IMG/VR virus record: IMGVR_UViG_3300023273_000411
Coordinates: 1-25,116 of that record
Strand: one strand, 5' to 3'
DNA: 25,116 nucleotides
Source of the DNA: a virus
The notes below the pieces were generated by a model, which worked only from the letters and a program-made list of their open reading frames with translations, ran no database searches and was not told the DNA's origin. This document shows, one piece after another, positions 1 through 20,638 of this stretch (the first letter of the stretch is position 1; every line of letters begins with the position of its first letter). Position numbers and translations under genes: made by a program.

Positions 1-679
1 AACCACCTATCGTAACTGTGGCACTATGAGTTGCACTTCCCTTCTGTATCATATCAACATCATTATTAGAATTGTTGATGGTTAAGTTTAGTGTTTTATC
101 TTGGTTACTTTCCTGTCTTGTATAAACATCATTATTACTACCATAGATATTTGTAATGTTTGAATGTTCGTGTCCTGAGTTATTTGATCGTTGACTTCCC
201 AAAAACTTATTGTTAGAACCATGAATATCTAATCGTGTAAAATGTCCACCATATTCATAATCATCTATACTATGTAGTGTTCCGTCAGCATCAACTCTGT
301 GTCCTTGATAGAAATCAACATCATTAGAATTGCCTGCTATATGAAACTCAAACTTATCACCGCCACATGGAGATTGATTACATGTCTGTGTAACATTTAG
401 ATTGTTACTGTCACCATCCAAGTCACCACCCCATAGTGCACCACTGCCCCATGCTGAGGTATATCCAACATAATTATTGTCACCTTTTTGGTCAATGTCT
501 ACTGTATTACTCGCACCACCAAAACTAAAGTTTACCTCGTTGTTACTACCCTCTACAGAGACAGTAATGCTGTTTGAGTTACCGCTGGTAACCTGTTCAA
601 TGGTTATGAGGTTATCAGCATATGCTACACTCATCATAAGGACGAAACTAGTTTTGATTAATAATAATTTGCGAATCAT
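1..679 (-). CDS. curlin-repeat secreted protein, 3' end outside window
   Basis: Open frame running off the left edge with no stop, so the C-terminus is missing. The start ATG ends at 679 and has a strong GGAGGG ribosome site at 685-690. The protein begins with a signal peptide (MIRKLLLIKTSFVLMMSVAYA) followed by DNLITIEQ. It then carries degenerate repeats of curlin type: hydrophobic-x-hydrophobic strands separated by GNSN, GSNN, GDNN and NSNN turns, with Gln in ITIEQV and VDIDQKG. A Cys pair (TCNQSPCGG) is unusual for curlins. It starts inside the 3' end of the FecR-domain gene (32-nt overlap) and is the last visible gene of the curli operon. By analogy with CsgA/CsgB it may be exported through CsgG and form amyloid-like fibres. 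The repeats are clear; the function is inferred. Confidence 0.85.
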   Translation of the reverse strand, partial: MIRKLLLIKTSFVLMMSVAYADNLITIEQVTSGNSNSITVSVEGSNNEVNFSFGGASNTVDIDQKGDNNYVGYTSAWGSGALWGGDLDGDSNNLNVTQTCNQSPCGGDKFEFHIAGNSNDVDFYQGHRVDADGTLHSIDDYEYGGHFTRLDIHGSNNKFLGSQRSNNSGHEHSNITNIYGSNNDVYTRQESNQDKTLNLTINNSNNDVDMIQKGSATHSATVTIGG

Positions 680-1736
680 TCGCGCCCTCCGTAGTGTGTA
701 GCATAAGATCAGGCGTGCCAGCCTGACGCAATGTAATACGTGTATCCTGTGTGCTAGGTGTTTTAATGCTTACCACACGTCCATCAACCTGTCTGTATAT
801 TTCCCAGTCTTCCTGTTCACCGCCAAATATTTGTGTATTGCCTTCTTCATATACACCTGCTACGATGGGATTGGTTGGAAAACGATCTGTTTGTTCGTAC
901 AATCTTCTGTTTAAAATATCTAGAATATTAGCCAGTAGATCAACATCCAGTAAGTTAAAGTCTAGTCTTGTAAATGCCAGTTGTTCTTCTTCTAGTTCAT
1001 TTACTGCTAGTAAGTCAATGTCTAGTTCATTGAAGTCTAATAAATTATTAGTTTCTTCATCTTTTGTATATTCTTTTTCAATCTTCTTAGGTCGATTAAT
1101 AATTAACAGGTTGTTAATCTGTGCTTCAGATAAATCCAATATCACTGGCTTTGCTGGAGATTTTTCGGTGGCAGTTACAAGTGTTGCTTGAAAGGCCTTG
1201 TTCATAATAACAGTGCCCACATCACTTGTAACTGCTATTTCACCTACTGTACCGTCCGGGTTTGGCAATAGTATGACTAGAGAACGACCAATCTCGTCCA
1301 CGGTCATACTGAATGCCGTTCCTCTAACACCAATAGACGCGGTGGGAGTGCGGATGCTAACAGACTGTTGGTTCTGTTTTGCAATAAGTCCACTGGCGTA
1401 TCGGACAGTACCCAACGCAATTTTAAGTCCTAGTTTGCTTGCGTTAGGCTTTTTTGGATCATAGACAAATTCATCTATGACCAATTTTGAATGTTTGTCA
1501 ACACGAACTTTAGTTTTATCTGCAAATCCTATTCCTACAATACCGTTTCCTGATCTAACTTCATCACGCATTTCAATACCAAAGCCTACTTCGCTTGACT
1601 TCTTATCGCCACTACGAAGCACTTCAGCAGATCCCATCTGCTGTTCGACTTTGCCTACTGCGGCATGCGCTACGGTTACAAAATTAATCTGTAACAGTAA
1701 TAGTAACGCTAGAACTAGACCCGTTAGTTGTAACAT
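648..1736 (-). CDS. FecR-domain exported protein
   Basis: 362 aa. A Leu-rich signal peptide ends at about residue 25 (VTVAHA/AVG). Residues about 30-190 look like a FecR domain: an N-terminal segment with GNGIVGIGFADKTKVRV, then the typical core SVSIRTPTASIGVRGTAF around residue 125-143. Residues about 230-275 hold an acidic leucine repeat, with NLLDFNELDIDLLA echoed by TRLDFNLLDVDLLA. In cellular FecR the domain is periplasmic and signals to a sigma factor. Stand-alone FecR domains occur in many envelope proteins, so signalling is not implied here. It overlaps the curlin-repeat genes on both sides (53 nt upstream, 32 nt downstream), so it is very likely co-translated and envelope-related. 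No strong Shine-Dalgarno precedes the start, which fits translational coupling. Confidence 0.8.
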   Translation of the reverse strand: MLQLTGLVLALLLLLQINFVTVAHAAVGKVEQQMGSAEVLRSGDKKSSEVGFGIEMRDEVRSGNGIVGIGFADKTKVRVDKHSKLVIDEFVYDPKKPNASKLGLKIALGTVRYASGLIAKQNQQSVSIRTPTASIGVRGTAFSMTVDEIGRSLVILLPNPDGTVGEIAVTSDVGTVIMNKAFQATLVTATEKSPAKPVILDLSEAQINNLLIINRPKKIEKEYTKDEETNNLLDFNELDIDLLAVNELEEEQLAFTRLDFNLLDVDLLANILDILNRRLYEQTDRFPTNPIVAGVYEEGNTQIFGGEQEDWEIYRQVDGRVVSIKTPSTQDTRITLRQAGTPDLMLHTTEGANDSQIIINQN

Positions 1737-2382
1737 CTACAGTACTCGCTTCTGCACCTGATTGAGTTATACTTGTTGTATTAGACGAACCAGTAATTCC
1801 TAGTGTAGTGTCATGCTGTGATGCACCGCTCTTAGTAACAGTAACAGTGTTAGTGCTACCAGTAATATCAACGTCTGTGATCTTATCTGTTACACTAGCT
1901 GCTGTTGAGTTTTCTGTGATAGTTACGCTATTACTTCCGCCAGTAATATCAACATCAATGTCAACATCATCAACGCCACTGGCAGTTGATCCTACACTAG
2001 TACTAACTGTGTTTGAGTTACCACCACTTGCGTTAATAGTAATGTCGACATCATCTGATCCACCGTTGCTACCGCCTGTAGTACCAACCTGGACGTCAAC
2101 GTCTGATGAGTTACCGGTTATGTTAGAAGTAATATTGGCGTTGTCGCCATAGATATCATAATCTAATTCGTTGCTTGTACCAACCTGATCGATGTCCATA
2201 GTGGTTGTAGCACCGTCACTGACGCTGTCATCACCACTTGCACCAACACGGTTACTTGAACCGTCTTGGTTAATATTAATTGTTGCACTACTACCTGTTT
2301 GATCAATATAGATCAAATTGTCAGCAAATGCTGGTATAGACATTGCTAACAGTAGTGTTACTCCTCCTACTATGCTCCTCAT
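1684..2382 (-). CDS. curlin-repeat secreted protein (CsgA/CsgB-like)
   Basis: 232 aa with a signal peptide (MRSIVGGVTLLLAMSIPAFA) and then DNLIYIDQTGSSATININQDGSSN, which matches the curlin pattern of alternating hydrophobic/polar strands with Gln and Asn/Gly turns. The body is almost entirely Ser, Thr, Asp, Asn, Gly and Val in short repeats (VDVDITGSTNTVTVTKSG, GITGSSNTTSITQSG). It contains no aromatic-rich or globular segment. Start support is AGGAG at 2390-2394, 7 nt before the ATG. It sits directly downstream of csgG, where secreted curli subunits would be expected. Amyloid formation is inference from repeat type; unusually many Asp residues could also suggest Ca-binding beta-solenoid behaviour. 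Confidence 0.85.
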   Translation of the reverse strand: MRSIVGGVTLLLAMSIPAFADNLIYIDQTGSSATININQDGSSNRVGASGDDSVSDGATTTMDIDQVGTSNELDYDIYGDNANITSNITGNSSDVDVQVGTTGGSNGGSDDVDITINASGGNSNTVSTSVGSTASGVDDVDIDVDITGGSNSVTITENSTAASVTDKITDVDITGSTNTVTVTKSGASQHDTTLGITGSSNTTSITQSGAEASTVDVTTNGSSSSVTITVTD

Positions 2383-2406
2383 AGTATTTCTCCTAAAGTT
2401 CTTTTA

Positions 2407-3249
2407 TTAGTTGACGTCTTCTAAATTCGATTTAGACTCCTTGTTAATAAATTTTTCTGGAAGCTTTGTACTGTCATAGTTCCAGTATCCCTTGCGCTTG
2501 CCTTCTTTAACCATTTGCACAACAGCAAACTCTATTGCTTGCCTAACAGCATAGTTAACTGGTTCATTTGTGCTTGTGCCTGCTTCTATCTCTAATACCT
2601 TTGTACCTAAATCATAAAATTTGAATACATTAATAGAAGTATTTGTGCTGAGTATTGTTTTCTCTGCACTTACTGCTAGAATAACTTCACCTGTGAGTAC
2701 GCTAACTGCTCGTAAGCCTATAGTTACAATGTCGGCCCTCCATTCTGTCATAGGCCCTATGCCCATAATACGTGCGCCAGCACCTCCTGTAAACTTGTTT
2801 GTATCGTAGCCTACAATGCCACCCTCAATGATAACACCTGCAAACTTTAGTGGAGCAAGTCCTTTATCAGGGTCAAACTTCTGTCTTGCTTGGCGTATGA
2901 TCTGTCGTTCTTTAACCAGAGCTTCCATTCCACCACGTTCGACCACATCAAAGAAGTTACCATCTGCAATGTCATCTAATGCTTTTATTAGGTATATCTC
3001 TGCACCTTGTGTTACCGCAGTACTGATGTTTGCAATGTTGTCTGCAGGCTTGCGCTGCCCTGTTTTATCTAAAAAGTTATAAACTGCAACCGTAACAGGT
3101 TTGTTGTTAGAGATCTTTGGAAAATCTCTAAGTCCCTTTTGTAATGGTGTGACTGTAGGTGTAGGTGACATTGTTTTAGCAATCTCATTGCCAACCACAC
3201 ATCCTGTTAGACTAAGTGCCATTACTATTGTTGCAGCAAGTTTAAACAT
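2407..3249 (-). CDS. csgG: CsgG curli secretion channel lipoprotein
   Basis: 280 aa, close to the 277 aa of E. coli CsgG. It begins with a lipoprotein signal and lipobox LTGC (Cys17). Recognisable CsgG blocks run the full length: VTVAVYNFLDKTGQRKP, NISTAVTQGAE, FFDVVERGGMEALVKERQII, GVIIEGGIVGYDTN, GGAGARIMGIG, VSVLTGEVI, KTILS, VFKF and TSNEPVNYAV. CsgG forms a nonameric outer-membrane pore that exports curli subunits. Of the pore constriction residues known from E. coli (Tyr51, Asn55, Phe56), Tyr and Asn are present in VYN and NISTAV, but Phe is replaced by Ile. The gene overlaps csgF by one base (TAATG). Family assignment is firm; a working pore in the infected cell is inferred. Confidence 0.95.
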   Translation of the reverse strand: MFKLAATIVMALSLTGCVVGNEIAKTMSPTPTVTPLQKGLRDFPKISNNKPVTVAVYNFLDKTGQRKPADNIANISTAVTQGAEIYLIKALDDIADGNFFDVVERGGMEALVKERQIIRQARQKFDPDKGLAPLKFAGVIIEGGIVGYDTNKFTGGAGARIMGIGPMTEWRADIVTIGLRAVSVLTGEVILAVSAEKTILSTNTSINVFKFYDLGTKVLEIEAGTSTNEPVNYAVRQAIEFAVVQMVKEGKRKGYWNYDSTKLPEKFINKESKSNLEDVN

Positions 3250-3695
3250 TAGAATCCAAATCCACTTGTTGGAATAATTAGAGTTGTTACTGTACCATCT
3301 GAGGCAGTTACAACCAGTTTAACTTCGTCTCCAATAGTATCATACTCTATAGTGTTTCCTAAAATTACAATTGTCCCGCTGTCTTCCGCTGTTTCCCCAA
3401 ATAACTTCTCACTCAACTGTTTACTTAATTCAGCGTAAACGCGACTTTCAAAGTTCTTCATAAACTTGTTAATGTTTGTATTTTCAGCTTCACGCTCTAG
3501 CTCTCTAGCCTTAGCTTCTTCTTTGGCTTTAATATCAGCCTTGCGTTGGTGTGTAAGGTTTTCAATAGTCAATACATGACTGCTATAGCCATGCCCACTA
3601 AAGGCAGGTGAACGCCAAGTGTGTCTAAGTTCCCCAGCGGCTGCTTGAGTAAAAAAAATCACGCTGAAAAAGACTGTAGCTATAACAGTTCGCAT
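3249..3695 (-). CDS. csgF: CsgF curli assembly factor
   Basis: 148 aa from the ATG ending at 3695. That start is chosen because GGAGGAG lies 7 nt upstream at 3703-3709; a longer frame to 3737 would run into a terminator hairpin and the late promoter. A signal peptide ends at AAAG/ELRHTW. The mature N-terminus ELRHTWRSPAFSGHGYSS parallels the CsgF segment that plugs the CsgG pore (E. coli GTMTFQFRNPNFGGNP). Then comes a charged helix (residues about 45-95), followed by a C-terminal beta region ending in TSGFGF. CsgF normally couples CsgG to the CsgB nucleator at the cell surface. First gene of the operon csgF-csgG-curlin-fecR-curlin. No csgE or csgC is visible. Confidence 0.88.
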   Translation of the reverse strand: MRTVIATVFFSVIFFTQAAAGELRHTWRSPAFSGHGYSSHVLTIENLTHQRKADIKAKEEAKARELEREAENTNINKFMKNFESRVYAELSKQLSEKLFGETAEDSGTIVILGNTIEYDTIGDEVKLVVTASDGTVTTLIIPTSGFGF

Positions 3696-3714
3696 ATCCG
3701 TACTCCTCCGCCCA

Positions 3715-3722
3715 TATTTATA
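3715..3722 (-). promoter_or_regulatory. T4-type late promoter for the curli operon
   Basis: Perfect TATAAATA on the minus strand. It is followed 6 nt later by a G, then the GGAGGAG ribosome site and the csgF ATG. It sits directly downstream of an intrinsic terminator, so the curli operon is insulated from upstream transcripts and should be expressed late. Confidence 0.8.
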
Positions 3723-3723
3723 G

Positions 3724-3753
3724 AAAAAACCGCACATTAATATGTGCGGTTTT
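3724..3753. terminator. intrinsic terminator between small genes and curli operon
   Basis: A 12-bp stem (3726-3737 with 3742-3753, core ACCGCACAT/ATGTGCGGT) with a 4-nt loop, flanked by A and T tracts. On the minus strand the stem is followed by six T. The plus-strand T run is shorter, so its main use is probably to stop minus-strand transcription coming from 3776-4085. Confidence 0.8.
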
Positions 3754-8156: not shown

Positions 8157-8173
8157 AAACTATCTCCATATGG

Positions 8174-8209
8174 GTAAATGTGGGAGGACAAGCCTCCCAC
8201 ACTATTTAC
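8174..8209 (-). terminator. strong hairpin at hsp20 end (terminator or processing element)
   Basis: TGTGGGAGG-CTTGT-CCTCCCACA forms a 9-bp stem, extended by GTAAA/TTTAC around a 3-nt internal gap. It overlaps the hsp20 stop codon. Only three T follow, so it may be a weak terminator or an mRNA stabiliser before clpS. Confidence 0.55.
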
Positions 8210-8643
8210 TTGAAGTTGACTGGGATAATACGTGGTTTTAGTTCTTCAGGAACTTCACGTACCAGCTTAATGCTAAGAATACCATTTTCAACGTCAGCAG
8301 ATTCAACATAAACATGCTCTGCTAGATTGAACGTGCGGGCAAAACGTCTGCCAGCAATACCCTTGTGTAGATATTCCTTTTCCTTCTCACCAGCTAACTT
8401 TTCAATAGTCGCTTCAACGGTAAGGGTGCTTTCGTGAGTATTAATATTAATACCTTCACGAGGAATACCTGCTACTGCGATTTCAATAACAAAAGTATTT
8501 TCGTCTTCTTTAATTACGTTGTATGGAGGATACCCGTCACTAGCATTATTCATATTATATGACATACGATCAAGTAGGCGATCGATACCAATAAAGTTAC
8601 GATGTAGTGAAGGCAGGTCGAGTGTGGTTAGTCTTGTATTCAT
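8206..8643 (-). CDS. Hsp20 / alpha-crystallin small heat-shock protein
   Basis: 145 aa from the ATG at 8643, which has AAGGAG 7 nt upstream; the longer in-frame start has none. The alpha-crystallin domain spans about 35-130: PPYNVIKEDENTFVIEIAVAGIPREGININTHESTLTVEA, then RRFARTFNLAEHV and GILSIKLVREVPEE. The C-terminus RIIPVNF holds the I-x-I/V-type anchoring motif. Hsp20 proteins are ATP-independent holdases, and relatives occur widely in T4-like cyanophages. A composite early/late promoter upstream suggests expression throughout infection, perhaps to protect capsid-assembly intermediates. Confidence 0.93.
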   Translation of the reverse strand: MNTRLTTLDLPSLHRNFIGIDRLLDRMSYNMNNASDGYPPYNVIKEDENTFVIEIAVAGIPREGININTHESTLTVEATIEKLAGEKEKEYLHKGIAGRRFARTFNLAEHVYVESADVENGILSIKLVREVPEELKPRIIPVNFK

Positions 8644-8707
8644 TGCATTTCTCCTTGTGTTAAGCAAGATATACTTGTGTAAGTCCCATAATGGCAACTT
8701 ACATCTA

Positions 8708-8989: not shown

Positions 8990-9377
8990 TTATTCCTCTT
9001 AAATTGTTGTTTGTATTTTCTGTCCACTTTAAAATAAAATCTACAGGATCGGGTATCTCATTTAAGTTAAACTTTAAATAACTAACTGTATTATTGTAAT
9101 AAAAAACTTTGGGTTTGTCTATAAAATAGCCAGCAATAAAGTTTTCTTTATCGAGTTCCATTAAGAATATATCAGACTGACTGTAGCACGATATAATCCA
9201 ATCTATACTACTGTCATAACCTGCCACATATACAGTAACTCTTGCATCCAGGTTACATAATATGTCACAAATACTAGAAACATATACTATATTACCCAAA
9301 CATGTGATTGTATAGTCAGATCCATAAAAATGATCAGGTTCTGATACAGCAACTACATTACTTTGAGAGTTTGGCAA
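8973..9377 (-). CDS. 134-aa protein of unknown function
   Basis: Probably starts with TTG at 9377 (MPNSQSNVVAVSEPD...), overlapping the preceding frame by 20 nt, with only a weak purine-rich ribosome site. The protein has alternating hydrophobic strands (YTITCLGNIVYVSSICDILCNLDARVTVYVAGYDSS, IDWIISCYSQSDIFLMEL), suggesting an alpha/beta or Rossmann-like fold of about 110 residues. No catalytic signature is recognised. It overlaps the bS21 gene by 17 nt, so the two are probably co-translated. Confidence 0.65.
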   Translation of the reverse strand: MPNSQSNVVAVSEPDHFYGSDYTITCLGNIVYVSSICDILCNLDARVTVYVAGYDSSIDWIISCYSQSDIFLMELDKENFIAGYFIDKPKVFYYNNTVSYLKFNLNEIPDPVDFILKWTENTNNNLRGINEKTQ

Positions 9378-9675
9378 TTTCTTCTTGCTCTACTTGTGAC
9401 AAGTCTTCAATTTCTATTCTCCTATTATCTATCTCGTTTTTAAGATAGGCGATGTATTCCTGATTGTCCAGGTAGGCCCTTGTATTAGTTTTACTAATCT
9501 CTATCCAGCGGTCACCAGTATATCTAAAGAGTTTGTTGGGGAGAACATCCACACGCACGAATAAATCACCACGGGTGGCTGTAGTGGGGAACCAAGTTCC
9601 AAACGTTACATTTGCTGCCCTGTCAATACTAAGGTCTACTACACCGGCAACTTCAACCGTAGGGACCGTTAGGAT
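9358..9675 (-). CDS. candidate -1 frame extension of the upstream membrane protein
   Basis: An open frame with no ATG and no usable ribosome site. It starts exactly at an A8 run in the last codons of the 583-aa gene and continues for 105 codons. The residues (ILTVPTVEVAGVVDLSIDRA, then GTWFPTTATRGDLFVRVDVL and LFRYTGDRWIEI, ending in an acidic helix) look protein-coding throughout, including the 36 codons before the only candidate start, a GTG at 9558. Such GDLFVRV/FRYTGDRWIEI segments resemble phage structural-protein ends. I infer either a -1 frameshift fusion (about 687 aa in total) or, less likely, a separate 66-aa protein from GTG 9558. A sequencing error in the A run is the third option. 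Confidence 0.6.
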   Translation of the reverse strand: MLTVPTVEVAGVVDLSIDRAANVTFGTWFPTTATRGDLFVRVDVLPNKLFRYTGDRWIEISKTNTRAYLDNQEYIAYLKNEIDNRRIEIEDLSQVEQEEIAKLSK

Positions 9676-20166: not shown

Positions 20167-20195
20167 TGACTGTGTCTACTTTCTTACTCCGCAAT

Positions 20196-20203
20196 TATTT
20201 ATT
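20196..20203 (-). promoter_or_regulatory. late-type promoter AATAAATA
   Basis: Located between the T8 end of the tmRNA gene and the small lipoprotein gene. One mismatch to TATAAATA. Confidence 0.4.
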
Positions 20204-20210
20204 TTTAGCG

Positions 20211-20236
20211 AAAAAAAATGCAACCATTTCTGTTGC
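20211..20236 (-). terminator. intrinsic terminator of the tmRNA gene
   Basis: GCAAC(20232-20236)...GTTGC(20220-20224), then A and eight T (20211-20218). An alternative six-pair stem GCAACC/GGTTGC with a longer loop is also possible. It marks the 3' end of the tmRNA precursor. Confidence 0.7.
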
Positions 20237-20392
20237 TAGGTAGGTTGCCCACCCCATGAGATTATGCTGCTAGAGCAAAATCCTCAGATGCTACATTATC
20301 GTTAGCATTTATTGTTTTTTGCTGATTTACGGTCTCGCCTACCGGTAACTCCACTTCGCTATACAACGCCAATCGATACCTAGTTCGCCCCC
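20219..20392 (-). ncRNA. ssrA: tmRNA coding piece (permuted, two-piece type)
   Basis: The minus-strand RNA begins GGGGGCG, which pairs over seven positions with CGCCUCC before the ACCA of the acceptor piece, including G3-U70, the alanine identity pair. A D-loop-like segment follows (GGTATCGATTGGCG). Further on, AACAATAAAT is followed by a resume codon GCT and the tag frame ANDNVASEDFALAA with TAA at 20262. After the stop, G/C-rich segments that could form pseudoknots lead to the terminator. The tag matches alphaproteobacterial tags (ANDN...AA). tmRNA with SmpB rescues stalled ribosomes and tags the product for ClpXP/ClpAP. The 3' boundary of the mature piece is approximate. Confidence 0.92.
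20262..20306 (-). other. tmRNA tag peptide frame
   Basis: GCT resume codon to TAA encodes ANDNVASEDFALAA. The terminal ALAA is the ClpX recognition end and the start ANDN is typical of alphaproteobacterial tags. Confidence 0.93.
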
Positions 20393-20523
20393 CTCAGAAA
20401 CACACGAATAAGTAATGGCCCAAATCTATAACTTTTATAAGGATTTCCACTATTTAATTTAAATTCGCCCCATTGAAAAGGAGTTCCTTTAAACCAACTA
20501 ATCCAATGCCAATCCCAATTCAT
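20380..20523 (-). CDS. 47-aa aromatic-rich protein nested in the tmRNA spacer
   Basis: The segment between the acceptor and coding pieces, normally removed during tmRNA maturation, holds a 47-codon frame from ATG 20523 to TAG 20380. GAGGA lies at 20528-20532, 4 nt before the ATG. The product starts MNWDWHWISWFKGTPFQWG and continues KLNSGNPYKSYRFGPLLIRVFLRGAN, with five Trp, several Tyr and Phe, and a hydrophobic-basic end. The frame fills the spacer almost exactly and its last 13 bases run into the mature coding piece. Composition is protein-like rather than random. Possibly a small membrane or toxin-like peptide; no family recognised. Translation is inferred from the ribosome site and frame only. 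Confidence 0.6.
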   Translation of the reverse strand: MNWDWHWISWFKGTPFQWGEFKLNSGNPYKSYRFGPLLIRVFLRGAN

Positions 20524-20541
20524 TATATCCTCATGTGTTTA

Positions 20542-20603
20542 TGGTGGAGGCGCCGGGATTCGCACCCGGGTCTTGTTCGCCTTTTGCTGGGCTTCAACGT
20601 TAC
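20542..20603 (-). ncRNA. ssrA: tmRNA acceptor piece
   Basis: The RNA ends GGCGCCUCCACCA with encoded CCA. A T-arm CCGGG-UGCGAAU-CCCGG is visible; its loop has G in place of the usual second U of UUCRA. The 3' strand CGCCUCC pairs with GGGGGCG of the coding piece. The 5' part (UGUAACGUUGA) can pair with UUGGCGUUGUA of the coding piece over 11 positions with several G-U pairs, as expected for helix P2. The acceptor precedes the coding piece in the gene, which is the permuted order. The 5' end is set from the promoter and is approximate. Confidence 0.88.
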
Positions 20604-20609
20604 AATACT

Positions 20610-20638
20610 ATTTAACTACAAATGCTAGGAAATGTCAA
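20610..20638 (-). promoter_or_regulatory. sigma70 promoter of the tmRNA gene
   Basis: GGTTGACA with -35 TTGACA (20633-20638), 17 nt, TTAAAT (20610-20615). It begins right after the speD stop codon. Confidence 0.75.

Follow-up and report, generated by a model that had tools for sequence, protein, structure and literature searches.

A small protein gene in the intervening sequence of a phage-borne permuted tmRNA

Within the virus record IMGVR_UViG_3300023273_000411 we analysed a stretch of 25,116 nucleotides (hereafter, the window) in which positions 20211-20603 had been annotated, from the letters alone, as a phage-borne two-piece (permuted) tmRNA. The locus raises two questions, namely whether this RNA gene is genuine and belongs to the phage, and what lies in the intervening sequence (IVS, or spacer) between its two pieces. 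Our answer is that the locus is very probably a phage permuted tmRNA gene with two products, a two-piece tmRNA and a 47-residue protein encoded by the IVS. The tmRNA is a further member of the already published phage two-piece tmRNAs; what is new here is the protein-coding spacer.

Rfam covariance models and ARAGORN both identified a complete permuted tmRNA on the minus strand of the phage DNA. The tmRNA_permuted model (RF04321) matched positions 20603-20262 with 117.1 bits (E = 1.3e-22; gathering threshold, 47), and the alpha_tmRNA model (RF01849), which the initial annotation had proposed as a check, matched 20659-20217 with 92.4 bits (gathering threshold, 50), so both scores are above gathering. 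ARAGORN called a tmRNA* at 20171-20637 with the tag ANDNVASEDFALAA*. The acceptor piece (20542-20603, minus strand) consists of the 3′ acceptor strand, the T arm, and an encoded CCA at 20544-20542, and it does precede the coding piece (20217-20392, minus strand), as had been claimed; the latter contains the 5′ acceptor strand, the tag frame, and the 3′ hairpins, with G1 at 20392. The tag frame, ANDNVASEDFALAA-stop, occupies 20262-20306 on the same strand and has a degron end. In the 3′ part of the coding piece, the RF01849 alignment has a large deletion, and a plain fold, made as a pseudoknot check, gave nested hairpins. The acceptor stem GGGGGCG/CGCCUCC is paired at 7/7 positions, again in agreement with the earlier reading, and includes a G3-U70 wobble. 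This wobble is present in 94/94 unique viral and 130/131 unique bacterial permuted tmRNAs compared, where part of the viral set was retrieved by a pattern that fixes U70 and one of 250 ARAGORN permuted genes could not be split and was left out. G3-U70 is the identity mark for alanine. Judging from its anatomy, the window's tmRNA should be charged with alanine by the host alanyl-tRNA synthetase via G3-U70 and, together with host SmpB, would rescue stalled ribosomes with the addition of ANDNVASEDFALAA; an SmpB gene was found in 0/50 viral records, most of which carry permuted tmRNAs.

The tmRNA had also been credited with its own promoter and terminator. The putative promoter, TTGACA-17-TTAAAT at 20610-20638 (minus strand), would place the transcription start near 20603. 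A strict promoter scan of the window did not list the 20638-20610 pair, as its -10 element fails the rule of the scan, but the same hexamers and spacing (TTGACA-17-TTAAAT or TATAAA) recur in L004, L060, L022, L027, L185, L059, and L143 amid flanks that differ from those of the window, and this recurrence supports the promoter claim. At the other end, a terminator-like hairpin, GCAAC-7-GUUGC (20236-20220), is followed by eight T's, the whole feature covering 20211-20236 on the minus strand. Immediately upstream of the promoter lies a gene for S-adenosylmethionine decarboxylase (PF02675; 20640-20993, minus strand), for which tblastn gave no match in the relatives L004, L022, and L060.

Could the phage have captured this tmRNA gene recently from a host, or could the region even be an assembled fragment of host DNA? 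The match to the alpha_tmRNA model might be taken that way, and passages of PMC9004378 argue for an alphaproteobacterial origin of the tmRNA of phage Melnitz. However, the genes around the window's tmRNA are those of a phage (ribonucleotide reductase, endolysin, a virion structural protein, and genes resembling the CsgF/CsgG genes of Melnitz), and seven viral contigs (L004, L022, L027, L039, L045, L056, and L060) carry the tmRNA with the same downstream neighbours. We also placed the gene in a tree of 194 distinct mature tmRNA rows, 85 viral and 109 bacterial (18 of them SAR11). One branch, with 99/92 support, unites 108/109 bacterial rows, including all 18 from SAR11, with only two viral rows, and 83/85 viral rows, the window's among them, fall outside it. 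With syntenic viral contigs on the one hand and the window among the viral rows on the other, we reject a host fragment or recent capture as extremely improbable. The tree suggests instead that phage two-piece tmRNAs are a long-standing viral lineage and not the result of repeated host captures; given its 156 columns and unsettled bootstrap, we regard it as evidence for such a lineage and not as proof. The single bacterial exception, L317 (G049 contig 320, ~164326), comes from a Methyloprofundus gammaproteobacterial MAG and groups with the phage tmRNAs; it is possibly a phage contig in the Methyloprofundus bin.

The initial annotation was unsure whether phage two-piece tmRNAs had been reported before. 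They have, in Melnitz and in marine and aquatic phages: passages of PMC9004378 describe a two-piece tmRNA in Melnitz and in 17/47 related contigs, and count two-piece forms as 53/133 distinct phage tmRNA structures, so that the headline of the annotation is confirmed and is not new. Some phage tmRNAs in our own collection are unusual in other ways. One viral contig (L024) has two permuted tmRNAs (8159-8493 and 9090-9481) inside a 1.4-kb span, with different tags (ANDNFASEDYALAA and ANENFALAA), and the phage tmRNAs of L009, L011, L019, L105, L172, and others encode tags that end in NEDFALAA and, at 29-30 residues, are roughly double the usual length. In the window itself, CsgG- and CsgF-like genes, so named from their similarity to Melnitz, lie at 648-3737 (minus strand), together with FecR-like and curlin-repeat-like open reading frames (ORFs) recognized by eye.

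What the initial annotation overlooked is a protein gene inside the IVS. The IVS comprises 149 nt (20393-20541, minus strand) and is expected to be absent from the mature tmRNA. Starting 10 nt after the CCA is a Shine-Dalgarno (SD) sequence, GAGGA (20528-20532, minus strand), followed after 4 nt by an ATG, about 18-19 nt from the CCA, which opens a frame of 47 codons (MNWDWHWISWFKGTPFQWGEFKLNSGNPYKSYRFGPLLIRVFLRGAN; 20380-20523, minus strand). The UAG stop lies within the mature coding piece and ends 13 nt into it. In the predicted fold, the IVS is closed by an 11-bp stem whose 5′ arm, AAACACAUGAG (20530-20540, minus strand), pairs with the 3′ arm at 20398-20408; the first letters of the SD sequence fall within the 5′ arm. 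A discarded spacer would be expected to be the part of the gene that is freest to vary. Yet, in comparison with L004 and L060, the IVS is identical at 149/149 positions, whereas identity is 60% over the 25 nt immediately before the acceptor piece and 41% for a neighbouring 623-residue protein. That very identity makes these nearest relatives uninformative on codon usage. Against 300 dinucleotide shuffles, the ORF cover of the window's IVS (88%) gave p = 0.023 and the length of the SD-led ORF p = 0.000. The nested protein had no match in PHROG, Pfam, the phage collection, or plasmids, a profile of its family had none in 58 genomes from the order of a Pelagibacteraceae genome (a search run without a positive control), and its AlphaFold model is poor (pLDDT 55.5).

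In a collection of permuted tmRNAs for which an ANDN tag start and G3-U70 were required, the spacer was at least 100 nt long in 33/113 unique viral genes compared to 2/85 unique bacterial entries, both of them from locus L470 with an ORF of 11 codons. We compared 32 distinct long viral spacers with 300 dinucleotide shuffles each, bearing in mind that these spacers are not independent samples, since one cargo family contributes several copies. ORF cover averaged 0.79 against an expected 0.47 and exceeded that of the shuffles (p < 0.05) in 19/32, and the SD-led ORF was longer than in the shuffles in 18/32. At least one of the two tests was passed by 23/32 and neither by 9/32. The nine without any excess, and the conservation of the IVS ends for structural reasons, leave some room for the view that this is an ordinary phage tmRNA with a junk IVS, in which an open frame arises by chance from base composition and the conserved ends. 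The shuffle tests speak against it, as do protein-level homologues outside tmRNA genes and, for the three cargo families described below (A, C, and D), the pattern of substitutions, and we consider it hardly conceivable.

The homologues were found in IMG/VR with protein alignments as queries, from which the tmRNA was excluded. Family A, to which the window's protein belongs, has 42 copies, 34 of them inside a tmRNA IVS and five free-standing, four of the latter without a tmRNA found in the stretch examined. Family C has 25 copies (17 in an IVS). Of 132 family-D copies, the best 80 comprise 33 inside an IVS and 46 outside. In 17/20 tested loci that lack an ARAGORN call, the RF04321 match spans the cargo. 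All 34 family-A copies in an IVS start 18 nt after the CCA, and the family is associated with 11 different tags, a further tag being incomplete at a contig end; the tag of the L610 tmRNA is ANDNFASEDFALAA. Pooled pN/pS, calculated from unique sequences of the commonest length, was 0.13 for family A (14 coding sequences), 0.23 for family C (five), and 0.26 for family D (24), where the last value may include the copies in L682, L684, and L686, which lie between tRNAs and not in a tmRNA. Differences within family A fall on the three codon positions as 37/105/486, so that 486/628 are at third positions. Three family-C frames (L126, L142, and L129) are open and conserved at the protein level, with only an ATA after the SD sequence where the start is expected, which reflects either a non-standard start or decay.

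The cargo also seems to move. We compared 20 distinct family-A copies with the window's type and found the IVS to be more identical than the coding piece in 18. In 13 of the 20, the IVS is 0.91-0.99 identical and the coding piece only 0.43-0.66. Four copies have a whole gene close to that of the window, and three have an IVS below 0.91 (0.88, 0.81, and 0.61); these seven comparisons are no evidence for exchange. In an alignment of 15 backbones that carry other tags, the whole spacer is highly identical, and identity drops in the T arm on one side and, on the other, some 14 nt inside the coding piece. When backbones were clustered at 80% identity, family A occurred in eight clusters, family D in nine, and family C in six. 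The excess of IVS over coding-piece identity and the spread over several backbone clusters lead us to propose that a small-protein cassette moves from one phage tmRNA gene to another, divergent one, the probable route being recombination within the conserved sequence of the acceptor stem. Taken with the selection described above, these sequence comparisons support an IVS that is protein-coding, kept by selection, and exchanged between divergent phage tmRNA genes.

How would such a nested gene be expressed? We envisage one transcript that would start near 20603 and end at the U-run, and would be cut at the CCA end and, by RNase P, at G1. This maturation would either free the IVS as a mini-mRNA or cut it during translation. 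The layout of the spacers bears on these steps. The spacer is closed by a stem that adjoins the acceptor stem, and the two arms change in step between families: AAACAC/GUGUUU in family A, AAGGAC/GUCUUU in most of family D, and AAAAGC/GCUUUU in 2/17 family-C copies, with AAACGC/GCUUUU, which contains a mismatch, in three. In family D the SD sequence lies within this stem. In 27/34 family-A and 13/17 family-C copies, the stop codon ends 13 nt beyond the RNase P site, and it ends 1 nt before this site in 33/33 family-D copies, which have the arrangement CCA-12 to 15 nt-cargo-1 nt-G1. The closing stem, the precise stops, and the RNA genes that abut some free copies (see below) are the grounds on which we infer that each message is produced within a longer tmRNA or tRNA precursor, whose maturation trims it.

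Taken one step further, the family-D layout resembles tRNA punctuation, in which small messages, whether within tRNA arrays or within a tmRNA IVS, would have a CCA 3′ end on one side and an RNase P cut on the other and would be trimmed to exact ends, just as mitochondrial mRNAs are trimmed by their flanking tRNAs. Among the best 80 of 132 family-D copies, the stop of free copies is 0 nt before a tRNA-Leu in 9/43 and 1 nt before an ARAGORN tmRNA in six, and an RNA gene starts at most 60 nt after the stop in 16/43, compared to 29/500 other ORFs at the same loci; a further three copies have such a neighbour. In nine loci (L651, L652, L653, L657, L658, L660, L682, L684, and L686), the family-D gene is squeezed between two tRNA genes; the stop directly abuts tRNA-Leu in several, and some have the arrangement tRNA-13 nt-cargo-0 nt-tRNA. 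However, 27 of the same 43 free copies lack an RNA gene start in the 60 nt that follow the stop codon, and for 24 there is none on either flank; furthermore, in family A and most of family C, a cut at the RNase P site would remove the stop codon. We regard tRNA-like punctuation as a possible but rather unlikely reading of these arrangements.

As the family-A stop usually ends 13 nt inside the coding piece, cleavage by RNase P would turn the message into a nonstop mRNA, which would itself be a substrate for trans-translation. Across many such phages, the spacer might then be a dedicated, exchangeable docking site, where maturation yields an mRNA and a rescue RNA from one precursor, and a stop beyond the cut would let the tmRNA limit its own passenger, as a self-regulating RNA-protein pair. 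We put this self-regulating pair forward as a tentative idea that we ourselves judge unlikely.

An alternative is that insertions into the IVS are simply tolerated, and that the spacer is occupied by an independent phage gene that has no functional tie to ribosome rescue and no regulated release. The 46 family-D copies outside tmRNA genes (of the best 80 of 132), several of them between tRNA genes, and the five free-standing family-A copies show that the link to tmRNA is not obligatory, and the slot is common to several dissimilar cargo families. In contrast, 13 of these 46 free family-D copies are followed on their own strand, after 22-502 nt, by an ARAGORN tmRNA, a tmRNA is present in the stretch examined for 6/8 free family-C copies, and the stops of family D (1 nt short of the RNase P site in the IVS copies, and flush with tRNA-Leu in the nine free ones) are more precise than tolerance needs. 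We give this alternative a substantial chance, somewhat below even. The best reading, in our opinion, is that the IVS of phage permuted tmRNAs serves as an exchangeable cargo bay for small proteins, whose genes would share a transcript with the tmRNA and would probably be released when that RNA matures.

What the cargoes do can be approached from their relatives. Families A, B, and C had no match in PHROG or Pfam. Family D has only a weak PHROG match (E = 0.076), and is an annotated coding sequence in phage Melnitz, where it ends 3 nt before the tmRNA. Its structure model is good (pLDDT 92); the best match to the model in the PDB (E = 0.33) is a 70-residue chain from a study of type I-C CRISPR-Cas3, and the best viral structure match has E = 0.010, so that the fold of a small phage protein is no more than hinted at. 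Relatives of the 82-residue L519 cargo occur in pelagiphage Mosig, in HTVC025P (~0.7 kb ahead of DNA maturase B), and, directly before terminase, in a Mediterranean phage. These locations are near the position of the lysis genes in T7-like phages. Some other cargoes resemble short membrane proteins by eye. Because of these membrane-like cargoes and the locations of the L519 relatives, it is plausible that the cargoes are small lysis, anti-defence, or host-takeover proteins.

The window also encodes a phage ClpS (7848-8156, minus strand; PF02617, 72.8 bits), adjoining an Hsp20 gene (8206-8697). ClpS blocks the degradation of SsrA-tagged proteins by ClpA. One might thus suppose that the tmRNA and the phage ClpS act together as a proteolysis module. 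Among 50 viral records with a length of 37 kb or more, ClpS was present in 16/35 with, and 0/15 without, a permuted tmRNA above the cut-off, and in all 16 it was on the same strand as the tmRNA and within ~18 kb of it. In the 12 records that had been picked by a ribonucleotide reductase search, the corresponding counts were 6/9 and 0/3. However, the other 38 of the 50 had been picked by tmRNA motifs, Melnitz has no ClpS, and when the search started from ClpS, a permuted tmRNA was found in only 4/26 records (4/9 of those of at least 37 kb) and with looser spacing, which weakens the 16/16 association. No one-piece tmRNA above the cut-off was found in the 16 of these 26 records that were searched for it. 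We therefore do not adopt the proteolysis module, which appears very unlikely.

If the cargo-bay reading is right, phages would use a spacer thought to be waste for storing and exchanging protein genes, and overlooked small phage proteins could be found inside permuted tmRNAs and between tRNAs. Expression of the cargo would depend on the maturation of the RNA and might also be linked with ribosome rescue. Since Melnitz also has a spacer ORF, these ideas are testable in a cultured phage-host pair.

We found no description of a protein gene inside a tmRNA spacer in the open-licence literature, including passages of PMC9004378 and PMC11915505. A close known counterpart of the window's locus is that of the Methylophilales phage Melnitz (MZ577095-MZ577098; PMC9004378), which likewise has a permuted tmRNA and CsgF/CsgG-type genes in the same genome. 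The IVS of its tmRNA also holds an SD-led, unannotated ORF of 54 amino acids (L002, 11889-12053) that runs into the coding piece, with pN/pS of 0.34 against L177. Melnitz differs in its tag (ANDNYVPVDYALAA), its cargo, and its neighbouring genes, and its tmRNA is followed by a glutamine riboswitch (RF01739), which an Rfam search at E ≤ 1 did not find in the window. The permuted tmRNAs of alphaproteobacteria, including SAR11 (RF01849, RF04321), share with the window the gene order, the 7-bp acceptor stem, G3-U70, and the ANDN tag start. They stand apart from the phage tmRNAs in the tree, however, and the bacterial genes have a shorter median IVS (33 vs. 63 nt) and median tag (11 vs. 14 amino acids) than those of phages.

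A protein gene within the removed part of a tmRNA gene is also a feature of the intron-type tmRNAs, whose group I introns, according to passages of PMC11915505, in some cases contain homing endonuclease genes. There, the protein gene belongs to a self-splicing intron in the T-loop, whereas in the window it occupies the natural spacer of a permuted gene and encodes 47 residues. We tried an intron with a homing endonuclease as a candidate for the window and rejected it, as there is no match to an intron family and the 47-residue protein has no Pfam match. Mitochondrial tRNA punctuation offers another likeness, since there, too, an mRNA is flanked by tRNA-like units, which RNase P and 3′ processing enzymes cleave. 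Unlike in mitochondria, the setting here is phage DNA, each message comes from one small gene, and it is a tmRNA that provides the punctuation.
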